A stretch of DNA of 34,075 nt from Pseudomonadota bacterium. GTDB taxonomy: Bacteria > Pseudomonadota > Alphaproteobacteria > Acetobacterales > Acetobacteraceae. Positions within the stretch are counted from its first letter, which is position 1, and each line of letters begins with the position of its first letter. The notes under the pieces were generated by a model. The model ran no database searches, was not told where the DNA came from, and saw only the letters and a program-made list of their open reading frames with translations. The stretch lies in contig JAKBBM010000022.1 in the NCBI GenBank assembly GCA_021808545.1, forward strand, positions 1-34,075. The letters are read 5' to 3'. Made by a program: the position numbers and the translations under genes. Below, piece after piece: positions 2,894 to 18,509 of the stretch.

Positions 2894-4617
2894 CAGAGCG
2901 AGATGTCGTGTCCCATCATCACCGGTGCTGCGGGCTTAGCGACGCGGTTTTGCCAATAGGCCAGATGCTGCGCGACGGGGTGGAACCAGGGCACCATGTA
3001 AAACCCGGCCATCAGGCGCGCATTCAGCGCGCGCAGGGCTGTATCCCGGGCCGCTTGGGTGGCGGCGCTCAGCACGGCGTGGATTCCAGCCTCGATCGCG
3101 GGGCTGCACACCCCGGCCAGATTATAGCTGCCCTTGGTGCGCGCGGCGGCACAGCCCCAATAGCCTGTGAGCTCACTGCCGGGGATGGCGGATTCGGGAA
3201 AGCCTGCGGGCGTCATCTCAAAATCGAAATCGCGCAGCCGGGCGCGGTAACTTGCCGGGTCCATGAGGGTGATGTGCGCCGTAATGCCCAGCCGGGCGAG
3301 ATGCTGGATATAGGGCAGGACGAAGCGTTCATCGGCCGGATGATCGAGCATGATGTTCAACCGCATCTTCTGGCCCACCGCGTTCACCAGCCGCATATGC
3401 CGCACCCGCCAGCCTGCCGCGCGCAGCAAGGTCAGGGCCTGACGCAGGCGCGCGGTCTCCTGATCGGGCGCGCTGGCGGCGGCCAAGGCGGGCCTGCCCG
3501 GCGGGTTTGGGCCAAAATAATGGTCATCGCGGGCATCCATGCCGCCCAGCATGGTGCGGTTGATCCAGGGGAAATCGAACACAAGGCTCAAGGCTTGCCG
3601 CACTTTGGGGTCGCAGAGCGGGGGCATGCGCGTGTTCATCACCAGCCCGCGCATGCCAGAAGGCAGGGTGAGCGGGACGTTGTCCAGCCGGATCCGGCCG
3701 TTGCGTACGGCGGCCCAGCCATGCATGGCCCGCCAGAGTGCGGGTGAGGTCTCCACCCACACATCCACCAGCCCGGCCTTGAAGGCCTGCCGTGCGGCGG
3801 TTGTATCCTGAAAGAAAAGCTGCGTGATCCGCTTGAAATTATCGCAGCCCTTGTTGGCGGGCCGGTTTTGCGCCCACCAATGCGGCACATGGGTGTAGCT
3901 GATGGAAGCCCCCCATTGCACGGCGCTGATCTGGTAGGCGCCCGAGCCGGGTGGGGCGGCGCGCAGGGGGGCCGCAAAATCCCGCCCGGCCCAGAAATGC
4001 GCGGGCAATATATACATGGCGGCGAGGTTGAAGAGGGTTTGCGGCCCGGCCCCCGGTTTGAGCGTGAAGGTGACATCGCGCGCATCCCGCACGCGCACGC
4101 TCGCCACGTCCGCATATTCCGCCGCGTAAAAGGGAGCACCCTGGCTGATCAGGGTTTTATAGGTCCAGGCCACGTCATGCGCGGTGACCGGCGTGCCATC
4201 GGAAAAGCGCGCGGCGGGGTTGAGGTGGAACGTGACCTGGTTGCCCGCCACGCTCACGCTTTGGGCGAGGTCGGCATATTCGGTTTCGCTGTCCGTGTCG
4301 GAAAGCTTGAACAAGGGCTGCCAGATCCGAAACACCGAATCGGGGGGCGTGCCGCGCAGGATGAAGGGGTTGAGATTATCGAAACTGCCTTGCGCGGCGA
4401 GGGTGAGGCTACCCCCCTTGGGTGCGTTTGGGTTGGCATAGGGCAGGGCCTGGGTGAGCGGCGGGGCGCCATTCAGGCTGATGACGGTTTGCGGCGGCGG
4501 CTGGGATGCGGCCGCCGGACCAACGCCCAGGGCCAGGCAGAGCGCGAGCGCCTTAAGCCAGCGCCGCAAGGGCCGCCTGGTGCAGCGCCGCGTTGGCCGA
4601 GGCCAGCACCGAGCCAT
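2881..4617 (-). CDS. yejA: Extracellular solute-binding protein family 5, YejA-like
   Basis: Signal peptide-like N-terminus (LKALALCLALGVGPAAA) and SBP family 5 features (GGSLTLAAQGSFDNLNPFILRG, ARFSDGTPVTAHDVAWTYKTL, LSLVFDFPWINRTMLGG). Alternative TTG start at 4569 (MRRWLKALALCLALG) gives a cleaner signal peptide. Confidence 0.82.
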   Translation of the reverse strand: MARCWPRPTRRCTRRPLRRWLKALALCLALGVGPAAASQPPPQTVISLNGAPPLTQALPYANPNAPKGGSLTLAAQGSFDNLNPFILRGTPPDSVFRIWQPLFKLSDTDSETEYADLAQSVSVAGNQVTFHLNPAARFSDGTPVTAHDVAWTYKTLISQGAPFYAAEYADVASVRVRDARDVTFTLKPGAGPQTLFNLAAMYILPAHFWAGRDFAAPLRAAPPGSGAYQISAVQWGASISYTHVPHWWAQNRPANKGCDNFKRITQLFFQDTTAARQAFKAGLVDVWVETSPALWRAMHGWAAVRNGRIRLDNVPLTLPSGMRGLVMNTRMPPLCDPKVRQALSLVFDFPWINRTMLGGMDARDDHYFGPNPPGRPALAAASAPDQETARLRQALTLLRAAGWRVRHMRLVNAVGQKMRLNIMLDHPADERFVLPYIQHLARLGITAHITLMDPASYRARLRDFDFEMTPAGFPESAIPGSELTGYWGCAAARTKGSYNLAGVCSPAIEAGIHAVLSAATQAARDTALRALNARLMAGFYMVPWFHPVAQHLAYWQNRVAKPAAPVMMGHDISLWWAR

Positions 4618-10630: not shown

Positions 10631-11308
10631 TTAGCTGTTATCGAGAAGACGATAGCCAACACCAGCTTCGGTGGCGATCAGTTTTGCCGCGCCATCGCCT
10701 AAATGCTTCCGGAGCTGGCCGATATAGACGCGTAAATAGGAGACGTCTTCGGTATGGGCCGGCCCCCACAAAGCGGTGAGAAGCTGCCTGTGGGTGAGCA
10801 CGCGGCCACGGTTGCGTGCCAGCAGCAGCAGCAGCGCCTGCTCGCGCTTGGTGAGCGGCAGCGCAACGCCGTTGCGCAGTGTGGCCTCGGGTGTGATGGC
10901 AAGCTCTGCAACATACAACGTGGCGGCAGGCGGCTCCGTGGCGCCTGCACGGCGCAAGGCGGAGCGGACGCGCGCCAGCAGCTCTCCCAGGGCAAAAGGC
11001 TTTTCCACATAATCATCGGCGCCGCTATCAAGTGCCGTGATCTTCTCGGCCTCACGGTCTCGCGCCGAGAGGATGATGACCGGCACAGCCGAAAAGGCGC
11101 GCAGGTGGCGCAGCGCCTCCTGCCCATCCATGTCCGGCAAGCCGAGATCGAGCAGCACAAGGTCAGGCGCCTGGGCGGCGGCCTGACGTAGGGCCTCAGT
11201 GGCATTGTCGGCGCGCAGCGGCGTGTAGCCGGCAGCGGTCAATGCGGGGGAGAGAAAACGCTGGATTTGCGGCTCATCGTCCACAACCAGTATACGTCCG
11301 GAAATCAT
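10631..11308 (-). CDS. kdpE: KDP operon response regulator
   Basis: OmpR-family receiver (VDDEPQIQRFL, DLVLLDLGLPDMDG) plus winged helix (LTKREQALLLLLARNRGRVLTHRQLLTALWGPAHTEDVSYLRVYIGQLRKHLG); adjacent to kdpD. Confidence 0.93.
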   Translation of the reverse strand: MISGRILVVDDEPQIQRFLSPALTAAGYTPLRADNATEALRQAAAQAPDLVLLDLGLPDMDGQEALRHLRAFSAVPVIILSARDREAEKITALDSGADDYVEKPFALGELLARVRSALRRAGATEPPAATLYVAELAITPEATLRNGVALPLTKREQALLLLLARNRGRVLTHRQLLTALWGPAHTEDVSYLRVYIGQLRKHLGDGAAKLIATEAGVGYRLLDNS

Positions 11309-13923
11309 GCGGCAGGAAGCTCCAGAGTGATAACCGTGCCGGGCTGTCCATCCGCCGGTAGGTCGGGGCGCGGGCTTTGCGCTGATATGCGCCCATCCAT
11401 GGCTTCGATGAAAGCCTTGGCGATGGCGAGGCCAAGCCCAGTGCCGGGTGCCACGCGGTCTCCCCGGCTAGCGCGGAAGAAACTATCGAAGATGGATTGC
11501 AGCTCGGTGGAAGGAATGCCCACCCCTTCATCAGCCACGCTTATACGGACGTTATTGCCCGTGCGCTGGGCAGCGATGCTGATGCGGCTGCCCGGCGGGG
11601 CGTATTTGACCGCATTGTCCAGCAGATTAACCAAAACCTGCTCCAGCAGGGCGGGGTCGGCACGTACATGGGTGGCATCGGGCGCGATGTTGAGGGCTGT
11701 ATAGAGCGCGCCCGGCGTGCGGGTAATGGCGGCCTCGGCCACTGTTTCCAGCAGCACGCGCGCGCGCTTTATGTCCAGCACGCCTGATTCAGCCCGCGCC
11801 ATGTCCGTGATGTTGGCGAGGAATTTGCCCATGCGGGTTGTGTCCTGGGTGATGGCGTTGAGCAGATCGGCGCGGGTGGCGGCGTCCAGTTTCTCGCCCA
11901 TGGTGACAAGCGTTTCGGCAGCACCCCGTATGCCTGTGAGCGGTGTACGCAGATCGTGACTGAGTGAGGAAAGCAGGGCGTTGCGGAGCTTTTGGCTGTC
12001 CTCATGTGCTTGCGTGCGGGCTGTCTGCATGGAAAGTCGGGCGCGTTCCAGGGCCAGGGCGGTTTGGTCCGCCAATGTGGCCAGGGTTTGCACAATGGGC
12101 GCCGGCGGCGGTACCGCGGCGTGAGCGCCCAGCACGCCCGCCACGGTACCTTGGCTGCGGAGCGGAAAGAAACGCCAGGGCACGGAAGGTAACGTGGCTG
12201 TGCCTGTGCCGGTTTCCATGTCATGTGTCAGGCACCATTCGGCGGCGGCCTGGGCAGCTTCATCCAGCACCGTATCGTCAGGGCGCCTCACCTCGGGCGT
12301 TAGCGCGCCGTTCTGGGCCAGAAGCACGATGCCGGCACTGGTGATCGCGGCGGCTTCCTCGGTGGCTGTGGTCATAACGTCCGACAGCGTGGCCGCGCGC
12401 GAAAGCCGCTGCCCGAATAGCGAGATGCGGCGCAGCGCCTCCACGCGCGCGGCAGCGGTCGCGGCCTCCTGCCGCACGCGACCAGCCAGCGTGCCGGTGA
12501 TGAGTCCCACCAGCAGGAAGACGAACAGCGCCACGACATCGCGCGGATCGGTTACGGAGAGGGTGAGATAAGGCGGCAGGAAGAAGAAATTCCACAGTAA
12601 GAAGCCCGCCACCGCCGTGAAAAGCCCAGGCGCGCGCCCGGCGCGGCTCGCCATGGCGGCGATGAGCCCGGTGAAGATGAGCCCCATCGCCTCCTGCGGC
12701 AGGAGATTGCGCAGAGAGGCGCCGGCGATGGTGATCGCGGCGAGCAGGCAGGAGGCGAGGATATAGGGGCTCCAGTCGCGCCTGGGTACGGGAAGCTTGA
12801 GGCGCGCAGGCGCTGCGGCGGGCACGGGCACGAAATGCAGTGTAAAGGCCAGGGCCTGGCGTGTCAGCGCCTCGGAAAAACGCCGCCCCAGTCTTTGCCT
12901 GCTCGCGGTGCGTCCCACAACGATATGGGTGATATTGTGCGCCGCTGCGTAGTCCAGCACGGCGCGCACCATGTCCGGTGCTGATTGCGTGACCACACTG
13001 CCTCCAAGCTGCACGGTAAGGTCCAATGCGGCCTGGACTTTTGGATCATCATCCGTACGCTCAATGTAAAAGCTGGTAAGGGGGGCTCGCAGGGCTTCCG
13101 CCAAGCGAGCAGCATGGCGCACGACGTTGGAGGCAACGTCATCCGATCCAATAAGCGCCAGCACCTTCTCCGCAACGGGCCATGGCCCCGGAATGGCGGA
13201 CGAGCGCATATAGCGCGCTACGTCCTTATCAATCCGCTGTGCTACGCGGCGCAGCGCGATTTCACGCAAGGCCCCAAGGTTGCCTTCGCGGAAAAAACCT
13301 TCCAGTGCGCGGGCGGCAACATCGGGCCGGTAGATATGGCCTTCCCGCAGGCGGGCCTGCAATTCGGCGGGGGGTAAGTCGATCAGCTCGATTTCGTCGG
13401 CCATGTCCAGCACAGTGTCCGGCACCGTCTCCCCCACGCGCACGCCGGTGATGCGGGCAACTTGATCGTTGAGGCTCTCCAGATGCTGGACATTCACGGT
13501 GGTCCAGACATCGATGCCCGCTTCCAGCACATCCTGAACATCCTGCCAGCGCTTGGCGTGGCGCAGGCCGGGGGCATTGGTGTGGGCCAGCTCATCGACT
13601 AACAGCAGTGCCGGGCGGCGTTTCAGCGCGGCATCCAAGTCAAATTCCTCCAGCATCTGGCCGCGATAGGGCACGGCAAGGCGGGGGATCTGCTCAAGCT
13701 CACCAATGGCTTGCGCCGTGCCGTCGCGGCCATGGGTCTCGATTAGCCCGGCCACCACATCAACACCCCTTTGGCGTTTGGCGTGCGCGGCGGTCAGCAT
13801 CTCCCAGGTTTTGCCAACACCGGGTGCTGCACCGAGAAAGATCTTTAAATGGCCGCGTTCGCTACGCTGCGCATTTGCCAGCAACGCATCCGGGTCCGGA
13901 CGGCCATCATCCCGATTTTCCAT
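11305..13923 (-). CDS. kdpD: Osmosensitive K+ channel sensor histidine kinase
   Basis: GHLKIFLGAAPGVGKTWEMLTAAH; LLLVDELAHTNAPGLRHAKRWQDVQDVLEAGIDVWTTVNVQHLESLND; H-box SSLSHDLRTPLTGIRGAAETL; C-terminal HATPase. 4-bp overlap with kdpE. Confidence 0.95.
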   Translation of the reverse strand: MENRDDGRPDPDALLANAQRSERGHLKIFLGAAPGVGKTWEMLTAAHAKRQRGVDVVAGLIETHGRDGTAQAIGELEQIPRLAVPYRGQMLEEFDLDAALKRRPALLLVDELAHTNAPGLRHAKRWQDVQDVLEAGIDVWTTVNVQHLESLNDQVARITGVRVGETVPDTVLDMADEIELIDLPPAELQARLREGHIYRPDVAARALEGFFREGNLGALREIALRRVAQRIDKDVARYMRSSAIPGPWPVAEKVLALIGSDDVASNVVRHAARLAEALRAPLTSFYIERTDDDPKVQAALDLTVQLGGSVVTQSAPDMVRAVLDYAAAHNITHIVVGRTASRQRLGRRFSEALTRQALAFTLHFVPVPAAAPARLKLPVPRRDWSPYILASCLLAAITIAGASLRNLLPQEAMGLIFTGLIAAMASRAGRAPGLFTAVAGFLLWNFFFLPPYLTLSVTDPRDVVALFVFLLVGLITGTLAGRVRQEAATAAARVEALRRISLFGQRLSRAATLSDVMTTATEEAAAITSAGIVLLAQNGALTPEVRRPDDTVLDEAAQAAAEWCLTHDMETGTGTATLPSVPWRFFPLRSQGTVAGVLGAHAAVPPPAPIVQTLATLADQTALALERARLSMQTARTQAHEDSQKLRNALLSSLSHDLRTPLTGIRGAAETLVTMGEKLDAATRADLLNAITQDTTRMGKFLANITDMARAESGVLDIKRARVLLETVAEAAITRTPGALYTALNIAPDATHVRADPALLEQVLVNLLDNAVKYAPPGSRISIAAQRTGNNVRISVADEGVGIPSTELQSIFDSFFRASRGDRVAPGTGLGLAIAKAFIEAMDGRISAQSPRPDLPADGQPGTVITLELPAA

Positions 13924-13929
13924 GCGGCT

Positions 13930-14505
13930 TTATGAAGCTGGCAGATGTTCCAGCGCAAGGTTGAGTTTCAGCACGTTCACATGGTCCGTGCCGATAATGC
14001 CAAGGAACGGATGATGCGCCATATTCTCCACCAGGGCGATGACGGTAGCGGTCGGCAAGTGCCGCGCTTTGGCTACGGCAGGGGCTTGGCGCAGTGCATT
14101 TTCCAGCGAAATATCCGGATCCAGCCCTGAGCCCGAGGCGGTAACGGCATCGGCCGGGACCGGGCCGGGACCAAAGGCTTGCAAATAGGCGGCAACACGC
14201 TGCTTCACACTAGCGAGAAGTGCCTTGCTGGTGGGGCCGAGGTTGGAGGCGCCGGATGTATCCTGCGTGTAAGGGCTGGGGCTGAGTGCTGAGGGACGCG
14301 GGACGAAATATCGCGGACCGGAAAAATTCTGGCCGATGAGTGCGGAGCCGACGACCTGGCCATTCTGCCTGATGAGCGAGCCATTGGCTTGCCAAGGCAA
14401 TACTGCCTGCATGGCGCCGGTAAAGATGCCGGGCAGGATAAGGCCTATAAGCAGGGTGAAAAGCACGACCAGGGAAATAGCTGGGCGGAGTTCGCGGAGG
14501 ATCAT
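13930..14505 (-). CDS. kdpC: K+-transporting ATPase subunit C
   Basis: RPAISLVVLFTLLIGLILPGIFTGAMQAVLPWQANGSLI...GSALIGQNFSGPRYFVPRPSAL; position after kdpB. Confidence 0.93.
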   Translation of the reverse strand: MILRELRPAISLVVLFTLLIGLILPGIFTGAMQAVLPWQANGSLIRQNGQVVGSALIGQNFSGPRYFVPRPSALSPSPYTQDTSGASNLGPTSKALLASVKQRVAAYLQAFGPGPVPADAVTASGSGLDPDISLENALRQAPAVAKARHLPTATVIALVENMAHHPFLGIIGTDHVNVLKLNLALEHLPAS

Positions 14506-14517
14506 TTTCTGCGTCCG

Positions 14518-16551
14518 TTACGAGAAGACGTGGAATAGGCCGAGGAGCATGTCGATAAGCTTGATGCCTATAAAAGGCGTGATCATGCCGCCAAGCCCGT
14601 AAATGAGCAGGTTGCGCTTGAGCAAAGCGGCAGCACCGATGGGACGGAATTTTACGCCGCGCAGCGCCAGCGGCACCAGTACCACGATGATGAGCGCGTT
14701 GAAGATAACGGCGGAGAGAATAGCACTCTGCGGCGTATTGAGCCGCATGATGTTGAGCGCGCCGAGCTGTGGATAGGTGGTGATAAAGATGGCGGGCAGA
14801 ATGGCGAAGTATTTCGCGATGTCGTTCGCGATGGAGAAGGTGGTGAGCGCGCCGCGCGTGATGAGGAGCTGCTTGCCAATTTCCACGATCTCGATCAGTT
14901 TCGTCGGATCACTGTCGAGGTCGACCATATTGCCCGCCTCGCGCGCGGCTTGGGTGCCGGTTTGCATCGCCACCCCCACATCGGCCTGGGCGAGCGCGGG
15001 GGCGTCGTTTGTACCGTCGCCGCACATGGCCACCAGGCGGCCCTCGCTTTGAACCTTCCTGATATAATCAAGCTTGTTTTGCGGATTGGCTTCGGCGATA
15101 TAATCATCCACCCCGGCTTCCGCCGCAATGGCAGCGGCGGTGATGCGATTGTCGCCCGTAACCATGACCGTGCGGATGCCCATGGCGCGTAGCGCCGCGA
15201 AACGCTCTTTTATACCGGGCTTTACGATGTCTTTCAGCTCGATGGCGCCAAGCAGCTTGCCATCTGCAGTAACGGCAAGCGGCGTGGAGCCCGCGCGGGC
15301 AATGCGGGCAATACTTTCGGTAAAGGCGGGGTCCGGCGCAACGCCAAGCGCGGCGAGGACCGAGTCCACCGCGCCCTTGCGATAGGATTTGCCGCCCGTA
15401 TCAACGCCCGACATGCGGGTATTGGCCGAGAAGGGAATGATGGCGGCATCATTCGGCGTGGCCAGGCTGATGCCGTAACGGTCGCGCGCGAAGGACAGGA
15501 TGGAACGGCCCTCCGGCGTGTCGTCACCTAAGCTGGCCATCACGCAGGCTTGCGCCAAAGCGCGTTCATTCACGCCCGGCACGGGATAAAAACCCGCGGC
15601 CATGCGATTGCCGAAGGTGATAGTGCCGGTTTTATCCAGCAGCAACGCATCCACATCGCCCGCGGCCTCTACCGCGCGGCCTGAAGTGGCAACGACGTTG
15701 AAGCGCACCAGGCGGTCCATGCCCGCAATGCCGATGGCCGAGAGCAGCCCGCCAATGGTGGTGGGGATAAGGCACACTAGCAAGGCCGCCAGCACCGGAA
15801 TGGAGAAGTGCGTGCCGGAATACTGGCCGAACCCGACCAACGTGACCACGGCGATGAGAAACACGATGGTCAAGCCCGCAAGCAATATGTTCAGCGCGAT
15901 CTCATTCGGCGTCTTGCGGCGTTGCGCACCTTCCACCAGGGCGATCATGCGGTCCAGGAAGGTTGAACCGGCATCGGCCGTGATGCGCACCACCAGCCAG
16001 TCCGACACCAGATGCGTGCCGCCGGTTACGGCGGAGCGATCGCCCCCGGCCTCGCGCACCACGGGAGCGGATTCGCCGGTGACCGCGCTCTCATTCACGC
16101 TGGCCACGCCTTCTATCACCTCGCCATCCGAGGGGATGAGATCGCCCGCCTCCACCAGCACCACATCCCCGCATCTCAAATCCGGCGCTGGGGTGGGTTT
16201 GAAAATCACGCGGTCGCGCGGGTCCACAAGCAGTTTCGACATCGTGTCAGACCGGGCGCGGCGCAGGCTCTCGGCACGGGCACGGCCGCGACCTTCCGCG
16301 ACAGCTTCGGCAAAGGTGGCGAAGATGACGGTGAGCCAGAGCCAGATGGCGATGGTAATGGAGAAACTGGCGGGGCGGTGGGTGAACAACGCCCCGATTC
16401 CCGTAGCGGTCACCAGTGCAGCAACGATTTCCGTGACGAAGATGACCGGGTTGCGGGCCAGCGTGACTGGATTCAGCTTTGCAAGTGAATCCAGTGCGGC
16501 GCGGCGGATAATGCCGGCATCAAACAGGGAGATGGTTTCAGCTTTTGACAT
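14518..16551 (-). CDS. kdpB: K+-transporting P-type ATPase subunit B
   Basis: [42 protein letters not shown]...[10 protein letters not shown]...[14 protein letters not shown]...[24 protein letters not shown] track over-extends the start to 16740. Confidence 0.95.
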
Positions 16552-16552
16552 C

Positions 16553-18247
16553 TCAGAAGCTCTTTCCAGCATAGAGCAGAAAATGCTCGGCGATTGGCCC
16601 AAGCGTGTCGGCTGGCATGAACTGGAGCCCGCCCAGGATGATGATGACGCCGATGAGCAGAAAAGTGAAAAGCGGACCGGAGGTGGGAAAAGTACCAGAA
16701 ATTTCATTAAGTTTTGGCTTGGAGGCCAGCGATCCGGCAATGGCGAGGATAGGGATCATGAAAGCGAAGCGACCGAACAGCATTGCCGTGCCCAGTCCGT
16801 AATCGAGTAAGGGGGTGTTGGCGGAGAGACCGGCAAAGGCCGAGCCGTTATTCTCTGTTGCAGAGGTCCAGCCATAGAGCATTTCGGATAGCCCGTGCGG
16901 CCCGGCATTTTCGAGCGAGCCAAGGCCGGATTTGGTCATTAGAGAAAGACTGGCCCCACAGAGGATGAGGGCGGTCAAAACCAACACAGCCAGCATGGCG
17001 AGCTTGATCTCCTTGGCCTGCACTTTTTTGCCCAGATATTCCGGTGTGCGCCCCACCATGAGGCCCGCGATAAACACCGAGAGCAGCGCAAATACGATGA
17101 TGGTATAGAAGCCCGATCCCACACCGCCGGGCGTCACTTCGCCAAGCTGCATCAGAAACATCGGGATGGCGCCGCCTAGGGGGGTGTAGCTGTCGGTAAA
17201 GCTGTCCACGGCACCTGTGGACGTGCCCGTGGCGGAAACATTGAAGGTGGTGCTTGCGGGAATACCGAAGCGCACCTCTTTTCCTTCCCAATTGCCGCTG
17301 GCCTGGACACCTGCTGCGATTTGCTGCGGGTTGCCTGCGGCTTCGGCCGCATAGGCGCCCACGCAGCCAAGGGCAAGGATGATGGCCATGGCGGCCATCA
17401 GGGTCCGGCCCTGCGCCTTGTCCTTTACCATATGGCCAAAGGCGATGGGCATTGAGAAGCCAATGACCAGGATCAACCAGGTCTCGAGGAGGTTGGTCCA
17501 GGCATTGGGATTTTCAAACGGATGCGCGGAATTGGCGTTGAAGAACCCGCCGCCATTTGTACCCAGTTCTTTGATGGCTTCCTGGAGCGCCACAGGCCCG
17601 ATGGCAAGCGGCTGGGTGCCTGATTGAAGCGTATGCAGTGGCACAGCCTGGACAAAGGTTTGTGGGCTGCCCGCCAGGACCAGCAGCGTGGCGGCAATCA
17701 GCGCGATGGGAATGAGCAAATAGAGCGTAATACGTGTGAGGTCCGCGTAGAAATTGCCAAGCGTTTTCAGCCCTCTGCCGGTAAAGGCGCGCATCACGGC
17801 TGCCGCCGCGGCAATACCGGCAGCGGCGGAGAGGAACATGTGTACGCATAAGCCCAGCATCTGCGCACCGTTGGAAATCTGTTGCTCCGGTGTATAAGCC
17901 TGCCAATTTGTGTTGGTGGTGAAGCTAGCTGCCGTGTTGAACGCTAGGCGCGGCGACATGCCCGCGATATGCAGCGGGTTAAAGGGCAGATAATATTGCA
18001 GCCGTAAAATGGCATAGAGCAGCGCGAAATGGATGACACTGAGCAGCAGCAGGGCGATGGCATAGGATTGCCAGCCCATCTGGCGCGTTGCATCGACACC
18101 AGCCAGGCGGTAGATGCCTGTTTCCAATGGGCGCAGCCAGGTTACGCGGCCTTCGAAAATGGCGGCTATATAGCGGCCAAGCGGGAAGGCAGCCCCCAGC
18201 ACCAGCGCGAACACCAGCGCAATATAGAAGAGACCATAGATTGTCAT
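16553..18247 (-). CDS. kdpA: K+-transporting ATPase subunit A
   Basis: [33 protein letters not shown]...[14 protein letters not shown]...[28 protein letters not shown]...[15 protein letters not shown] track over-extends the start to 18319. Confidence 0.95.
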
Positions 18248-18251
18248 GGGA

Positions 18252-18338
18252 TCAGAAATCCTCAGGCCGTAGCAAGGCCCAGACGAGATAGACGAGCAGC
18301 AGAGCGGAGATGGCGCCACCGGCGATAAGGTCGGGCAT
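18252..18338 (-). CDS. kdpF: K+-transporting ATPase small subunit F (28 aa)
   Basis: Manual translation: MPDLIAGGAISALLLVYLVWALLRPEDF*; single TM ending in the RPEDF-like tail typical of KdpF, directly upstream of kdpA. Below the ORF-track size cutoff. Confidence 0.88.
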   Translation of the reverse strand: MPDLIAGGAISALLLVYLVWALLRPEDF

Positions 18339-18421
18339 CACACGCGCGCGCAGGCCGGGACATAGAGAAGCAATAGAGCGAAAATGATAGCGCCCGCAGT
18401 TATGGAAATGAGATCACCCAT
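18338..18421 (-). CDS. 27-aa single-TM small protein at the head of the kdp operon
   Basis: Manual translation: MGDLISITAGAIIFALLLLYVPACARV*. SD-like AAAGGAG precedes the ATG; stop overlaps the kdpF start (TGATG). Confidence 0.72.
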   Translation of the reverse strand: MGDLISITAGAIIFALLLLYVPACARV

Positions 18422-18458
18422 GACAGGCTCCTTTCAGCCAGCTGGTGTGCGCGCGGTC

Positions 18459-18509
18459 GCATAAAATTTATATGTGGAATATCCATCTGCCGCATAAAGA
18501 GGGCATAAA
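18459..18509 (-). promoter_or_regulatory. Candidate kdp promoter/KdpE operator: three TTTATGC boxes with helical phasing
   Basis: TTTATGC on the minus strand (gcataaa on +) at 18503-18509, 18492-18498 and 18459-18465; start-to-start spacings 11 and 33 bp. TATAAA at 18467-18472 is a possible -10. Confidence 0.5.

Follow-up and report, generated by a model that had tools for sequence, protein, structure and literature searches.

The kdp Locus of the Window

The window, a 34,075-nt stretch of DNA, carries on its minus strand a kdp operon in the order peptide ORF, kdpF, kdpA, kdpB (by position), kdpC, kdpD and kdpE (Table 1), and the nearest relatives of its KdpA belong to Acidocella species and related MAGs (80–90% identity), which marks the source as an Acidocella-type member of the Acetobacteraceae. 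Reading of the sequence places the ATG of the peptide ORF at 18421 and, after 27 codons, its TGA stop at 18340-18338. This direct reading bore out the original prediction of two adjoining small ORFs, with their coordinates and sequences, the Shine-Dalgarno sequence AAAGGAG and the TGATG overlap, and both family models confirmed that the second ORF is kdpF, the Pfam cut-off for Potass_KdpF being 21.2 bits. An AAGGAG-like sequence is kept at the Shine-Dalgarno position of the peptide in most Acidocella relatives, and the TGATG overlap is retained in most Acidocella copies, a few having 2–3 nt more. No obvious Shine-Dalgarno sequence of its own precedes kdpF in the window, which together with the overlap is consistent with translational coupling of kdpF to the peptide; kdpA follows kdpF after 4 nt. 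Upstream of the peptide lies a direct repeat, present in a relative as well (L016), that is a candidate binding site for KdpE. Rfam gave no match in the peptide region or in the whole window.

Table 1. Coordinates of the kdp operon features in the window.
Feature	Position	Strand	Description
Candidate KdpE box	18492..18509	-	direct repeat TTTATGC-CCTC-TTTATGC, ~70–90 nt before the peptide ATG
Shine-Dalgarno sequence AAAGGAG	18428..18434	-	6 nt before the peptide ATG
Peptide CDS	18338..18421	-	27 aa, single-span, MGDLISITAGAIIFALLLLYVPACARV; 84-nt ORF, read directly
TGATG stop/start overlap, peptide/kdpF	18336..18340	-	kdpF ATG at 18338, the A of the peptide stop
kdpF	18252..18338	-	28 aa, MPDLIAGGAISALLLVYLVWALLRPEDF; Pfam PF09604 (Potass_KdpF) 37.3 bits, TIGR02115 38.5 bits
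kdpA	16553..18247	-	564 aa; Pfam KdpA E=6e-219
kdpB	14518..16740	-	longest ORF, true start further in; identity inferred from its place between kdpA and kdpC
kdpC	13930..14505	-	Pfam KdpC E=2.3e-63
kdpD	11305..13923	-	Pfam KdpD, DUF4118, HisKA, HATPase_c
kdpE	10631..11308	-	Pfam Response_reg and Trans_reg_C; named by position

A Conserved Gene Under Purifying Selection

Not a single in-frame stop was found in 62 distinct copies of the peptide ORF (25 from the genus Acidocella and 37 from Sphingomonadales). Its pooled dN/dS (Nei-Gojobori, NG86) was ~0.26 in Acidocella and ~0.45 in Sphingomonadales, values that are approximate because synonymous sites are near saturation and with which the codon-position pattern agrees in both clades, nucleotide diversity following the order 3>1>2 in Acidocella and Sphingomonadales alike. 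For comparison, kdpF gave 0.20 and 0.21, respectively. In the other two sense frames of the region, dN/dS exceeded 1 and stops occurred in many copies. The amino acids of the peptide are under purifying selection, while its synonymous sites are free to change.

With a profile built from 52 members, 223 of 265 distinct loci (265 of 308 before removal of duplicates) gave a match no more than 500 nt upstream of kdpA, some matches in Actinomycetota, Deinococcus and Burkholderiales being partly by construction since those sequences had been added to the profile; on the opposite strand, none of the 308 upstream regions matched. The peptide ORF is thus confirmed as a real conserved gene, and the original prediction, which had named as checks a frame conserved upstream of kdpF and kdpA in relatives and the dN/dS of aligned copies, held in both respects. 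A chance ORF or an alignment artefact might be suspected in view of the short length, hydrophobic nature and usual lack of annotation of the ORF, but the strand control, the dN/dS values and the codon periodicity rule it out and leave it next to no probability.

Features of the Protein Family

Most copies are 27 residues long and share a layout in which Met, a small or hydrophobic residue and Asp are followed by a hydrophobic stretch of about 17 residues, which has a Phe around its midpoint, and by the C-terminus Tyr-x-x-small-Cys-[DE]-[RK]-[LVI]. Over about 100 effective sequences, conservation reached 0.65 at D3 and 0.60 at F14. The YxxACxR/DRL-like tail mentioned in the original prediction is real but degenerate (Y20 0.42, C24 0.45, R26 0.47, L27 0.50), and the window copy itself is atypical, with CARV where the majority of its relatives have CERV, CEKV or CEHV. 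A short polar tail is added in some copies from Gemmatimonadota and Acidobacteriota. No conserved face of the helix emerged from the family alignment (p=0.89).

The peptide matched no Pfam or NCBIfam model above cut-off and has no relative among the solved structures of the PDB; a comparison with phage families yielded only one weak match, from one member. No natural fusion joining the peptide in frame to either KdpF or KdpA was found among the loci surveyed. Descent from a KdpF paralogue was considered and rejected, as the peptide matches neither PF09604 nor TIGR02115, and hhalign returned a probability of 2.7% with one aligned column.

Occurrence and Linkage to kdpA

Of 119 loci around kdpA, 117 had the ORF upstream of kdpF in a stop-anchored search; one of the other two offered only 161 nt of upstream sequence. 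The peptide occurs in Acidobacteriota, Gemmatimonadota, Chloroflexota, Dormibacterota, Actinomycetota, Deinococcota and Bacillota as well as in beta- and gammaproteobacteria, at least eight bacterial phyla in all. In a sample of Pseudomonadota whose lineage names were inferred from the KdpF sequence, at most 2 of 41 alphaproteobacterial kdp loci were without it, one of these having a weak copy (E=0.07), and of the remaining proteobacterial loci about half had it; the E. coli-type and Pseudomonas-type kdpF operons of this sample had none. Named records with the peptide include Acidiphilium, Azospirillum, Rhizobium, Sinorhizobium, Sphingomonas, Paracoccus, Microvirga, Acetobacter, Mycetohabitans, Caballeronia, Burkholderia, Deinococcus, Nonomuraea, Streptomyces, Arthrobacter and Bacillus badius. 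The sampled kdp operons of E. coli, Listeria, Lactiplantibacillus, Halobacterium, Ideonella and Tsukamurella are without it, and its absence from the enteric-type, Listeria, lactobacillus and haloarchaeal operons indicates that the pump can work in its absence.

Annotation of the family is sparse. The peptide is usually uncalled in annotated plasmid records, weak evidence in itself since the gene tables of plasmids are incomplete, and in Arthrobacter it appears as a mis-started “hypothetical protein.” The 34-aa Mycetohabitans protein WP_212667346.1, a family member by position and sequence, is named “potassium ABC transporter ATPase,” a misnomer for a protein with no ABC transporter feature.

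Linkage to kdpA is tight. When 289 whole alphaproteobacterial genomes were searched with a 38-member profile, all 35 matches at E<1e-3 lay a few hundred bases 5′ of kdpA, and in each of ten genomes from Acidobacteriota, Gemmatimonadota, Chloroflexota and Dormibacterota the best match was the kdp copy (10/10), a weak second match being found in one acidobacterial genome (G526, E=0.0016). The next-ranked match after the 35 was an orphan copy away from kdp, found in one family, apart from which no significant full-length match was found away from kdp in the 289 genomes. This orphan, MIDIFYTAIATGLFIAACAYAWACAKI, lies beside a TauD-like dioxygenase gene (L227:3015-3110; L228, about 3030-3113) and is conserved in two species, both of which have a kdp copy as well.

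Variant Loci and Further Small ORFs

In most loci the peptide stands upstream of kdpF. The order kdpF-peptide-kdpA was found in three Burkholderiales-type loci, one of Burkholderia stagnalis (L240) and two proteobacterial ones (L301 and L303), where the peptide is still upstream of kdpA; this order argues that the peptide is not tied to the control of kdpF, and since L301 and L303 belong to the same family and L240 to a Burkholderia, the swap may have been a single event. At two loci (L222 and L327) the peptide precedes kdpA without a recognisable KdpF. The former is the second kdpA copy of its genome (G040), with the peptide-like ORF AVLLASLAIASVAALLFISACDRLTTTDPLNSKDKS directly before kdpA. 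On plasmid pMP1 of Deinococcus radiodurans (L328:3794-10020) the kdp cluster is rearranged, kdpB lying upstream and apart, and the order peptide-kdpF-kdpA-kdpC is followed by a KdpD reduced to its KdpD and Usp domains; the peptide is thus kept at a locus whose KdpD has no membrane or kinase domain.

Other small ORFs were encountered in kdp operons. Between kdpF and kdpA, a third small membrane protein of 46 aa is encoded in Acidiphilium (L140:1057-1197, on A. cryptum pACRY03, and L068), where it is recorded as WP_155856319.1, “hypothetical protein.” A different short hydrophobic ORF, of which MTTLAAIVLAFLATAALLVVLLRVLLPAR is an example, is alike in several alphaproteobacterial genomes belonging to one family and occupies the same interval at L313, L260 and L264 and, in another form, at L261, L263 and L314. 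Some kdp operons may therefore hold at least three tiny membrane proteins. In Acidisoma (L066), a small hydrophobic ORF, MLNLIVVILCLSALLALLALAAIREEQRLQRQRAPRRF, lies upstream of the peptide, ~410 to 293 nt before kdpA.

Possible Functions of the Peptide

On balance, and with a modest degree of confidence, we favour the view that the peptide is a conserved single-span inner-membrane protein serving as a second small accessory of KdpFABC beside KdpF. Selection on its amino acids, the swapped gene order, the KdpF-less loci and the truncated KdpD of D. radiodurans together point to a protein working on or in the pump. Of the original proposal, an accessory peptide of the pump or of KdpD signalling, the second kdp membrane peptide stands on conservation, selection, linkage and overlap, and between the two targets the evidence leans toward the pump. 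The peptide gene would head the kdp mRNA, and its stop-start overlap would pass translation on to kdpF, so that it would be made in step with the pump once KdpDE switches the operon on. The Asp near the N-terminus and the Arg or Lys at the C-terminus suggest an N-out, C-in topology; within the membrane the helix would probably pack on KdpA/KdpB, its Tyr-x-x-small-Cys-acid-Arg-Leu end facing the cytoplasm, and the peptide may stabilise KdpFABC or tune its activity. Weighing against this view are the working pumps that do without the peptide, the lack of a conserved helical face and the orphan copy away from kdp. Sharing an operon is moreover no proof of physical association with the pump: the data show the gene with its conservation, selection and linkage, and from these we infer membrane insertion, topology, pump binding and effect. 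A bolder version, to which we give a little less than an even chance, is that the peptide, in the majority of bacteria other than the enteric model, is an ancient single-span fifth Kdp subunit, seated in KdpA/KdpB, translated before KdpF and unrelated to it in sequence, the E. coli KdpFABC being a reduced form.

Three other functions were weighed against an accessory of the pump. The ORF could be a translated leader whose translation, rather than its product, controls kdpF and kdpA through coupling, ribosome position or access of Rho. Its place as the first ORF of the operon and its overlap with kdpF agree with this, as do the ~100-nt “highly structured” 5′ UTR inferred before kdpF in Caulobacter and the possible Rho-dependent attenuation there, where RNA-seq coverage falls after kdpF (PMC8552747). 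In a leader, however, the product is dispensable and a codon run or an RNA structure is conserved instead, whereas here the amino acids are under purifying selection, the sequence is conserved from phylum to phylum and contains no run of a single sensing codon, and no Rfam element lies in the region. A leader would also be expected always to lie in cis upstream of the gene it regulates; the orphan copy without kdp and the kdpF-peptide-kdpA loci, in which the ORF still precedes kdpA, may likewise speak against a leader, which we consider unlikely. Across the family the peptide starts ~80–100 nt before kdpF, so that the “5′ UTRs” of Caulobacter and of Mycobacterium smegmatis could hold a predicted copy. 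In the latter, transcription of kdpF begins 120 nt ahead of the gene, within the annotated ORF MSMEG_5391, which the authors dismissed (PMC5401905); this ORF, upstream of kdpA, spans the “120-nt 5′ UTR” and kdpF, a place at which the loci of other Actinomycetota lead us to expect a copy of the peptide.

A membrane-peptide regulator of KdpD, acting as MgrB does on PhoQ and feeding back on pump synthesis, is in our judgment quite unlikely. For M. tuberculosis, a two-hybrid test showed binding of KdpF to KdpD (PMC3618439), and the KdpD-type membrane domain DUF4118 is present in 44 of 45 peptide-bearing genomes; KdpD being near-universal in these genomes, that count does not discriminate, and dependence on the KdpD membrane domain was set aside as a test. 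Against such a regulator stand the D. radiodurans locus, with the proviso that a KdpD-like kinase may be encoded elsewhere in that genome, and the absence of the peptide from Enterobacterales and Listeria, which possess KdpD. It is more improbable still that the peptide acts outside Kdp, on another K+ transporter, a protease or a lipid, and is merely co-expressed with the pump: the orphan next to the TauD-like gene, conserved in two species, fits this, but beyond that family the 289 genomes yielded no significant full-length non-kdp match, and the only other such signal is the weak second match in G526.

Significance and Comparison with Known Systems

KdpFABC is a model pump whose known structures and kinetics come from the E. 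coli complex, and the sampled E. coli kdp operon is without the peptide. Many bacteria may therefore carry a part or regulator of the pump that has so far been overlooked; should the peptide prove to be a subunit or a regulator, work on rhizobia, acidophiles and actinobacteria would have missed a component, and the 5′ UTRs published for kdp mRNAs would need to be re-read as coding sequence. Tractable hosts, among them Sinorhizobium, Sphingomonas, Azospirillum and Deinococcus, lend themselves to a direct genetic test. In the main texts of the open-access literature no paper was found that describes the peptide, nor any relevant paper on kdp genes named kdpX, G, H, Q, Y or Z, and a search of open-access papers for peptide strings returned one unrelated match; the main texts of small-protein papers on S. 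meliloti and D. radiodurans do not mention the ORF. While the tiny accessory membrane protein is a known kind, this family and its breadth appear to be undescribed.

The closest comparison is with KdpF, a stabilising subunit of KdpFABC. Like the peptide, KdpF has 27–30 aa and one membrane span and is encoded in the same operon, in an adjacent and often overlapping ORF, and the two coexist side by side in most operons; KdpF has the tail RPE-x-F, whereas the peptide has C-[DE]-R-L. With its conserved short ORF, hydrophobic span, selection at the protein level and genomic association with one transporter, the peptide resembles the class of small single-span transporter accessories. Indeed, AcrZ (AcrB), CydX (cytochrome bd) and MgtR/MgtS (MgtA) are likewise tiny hydrophobic proteins that annotation misses (PMC7267776, PMC4325964), and they are encoded with, or act on, a large membrane complex; the peptide differs from them in matching no Pfam or NCBIfam model above cut-off.
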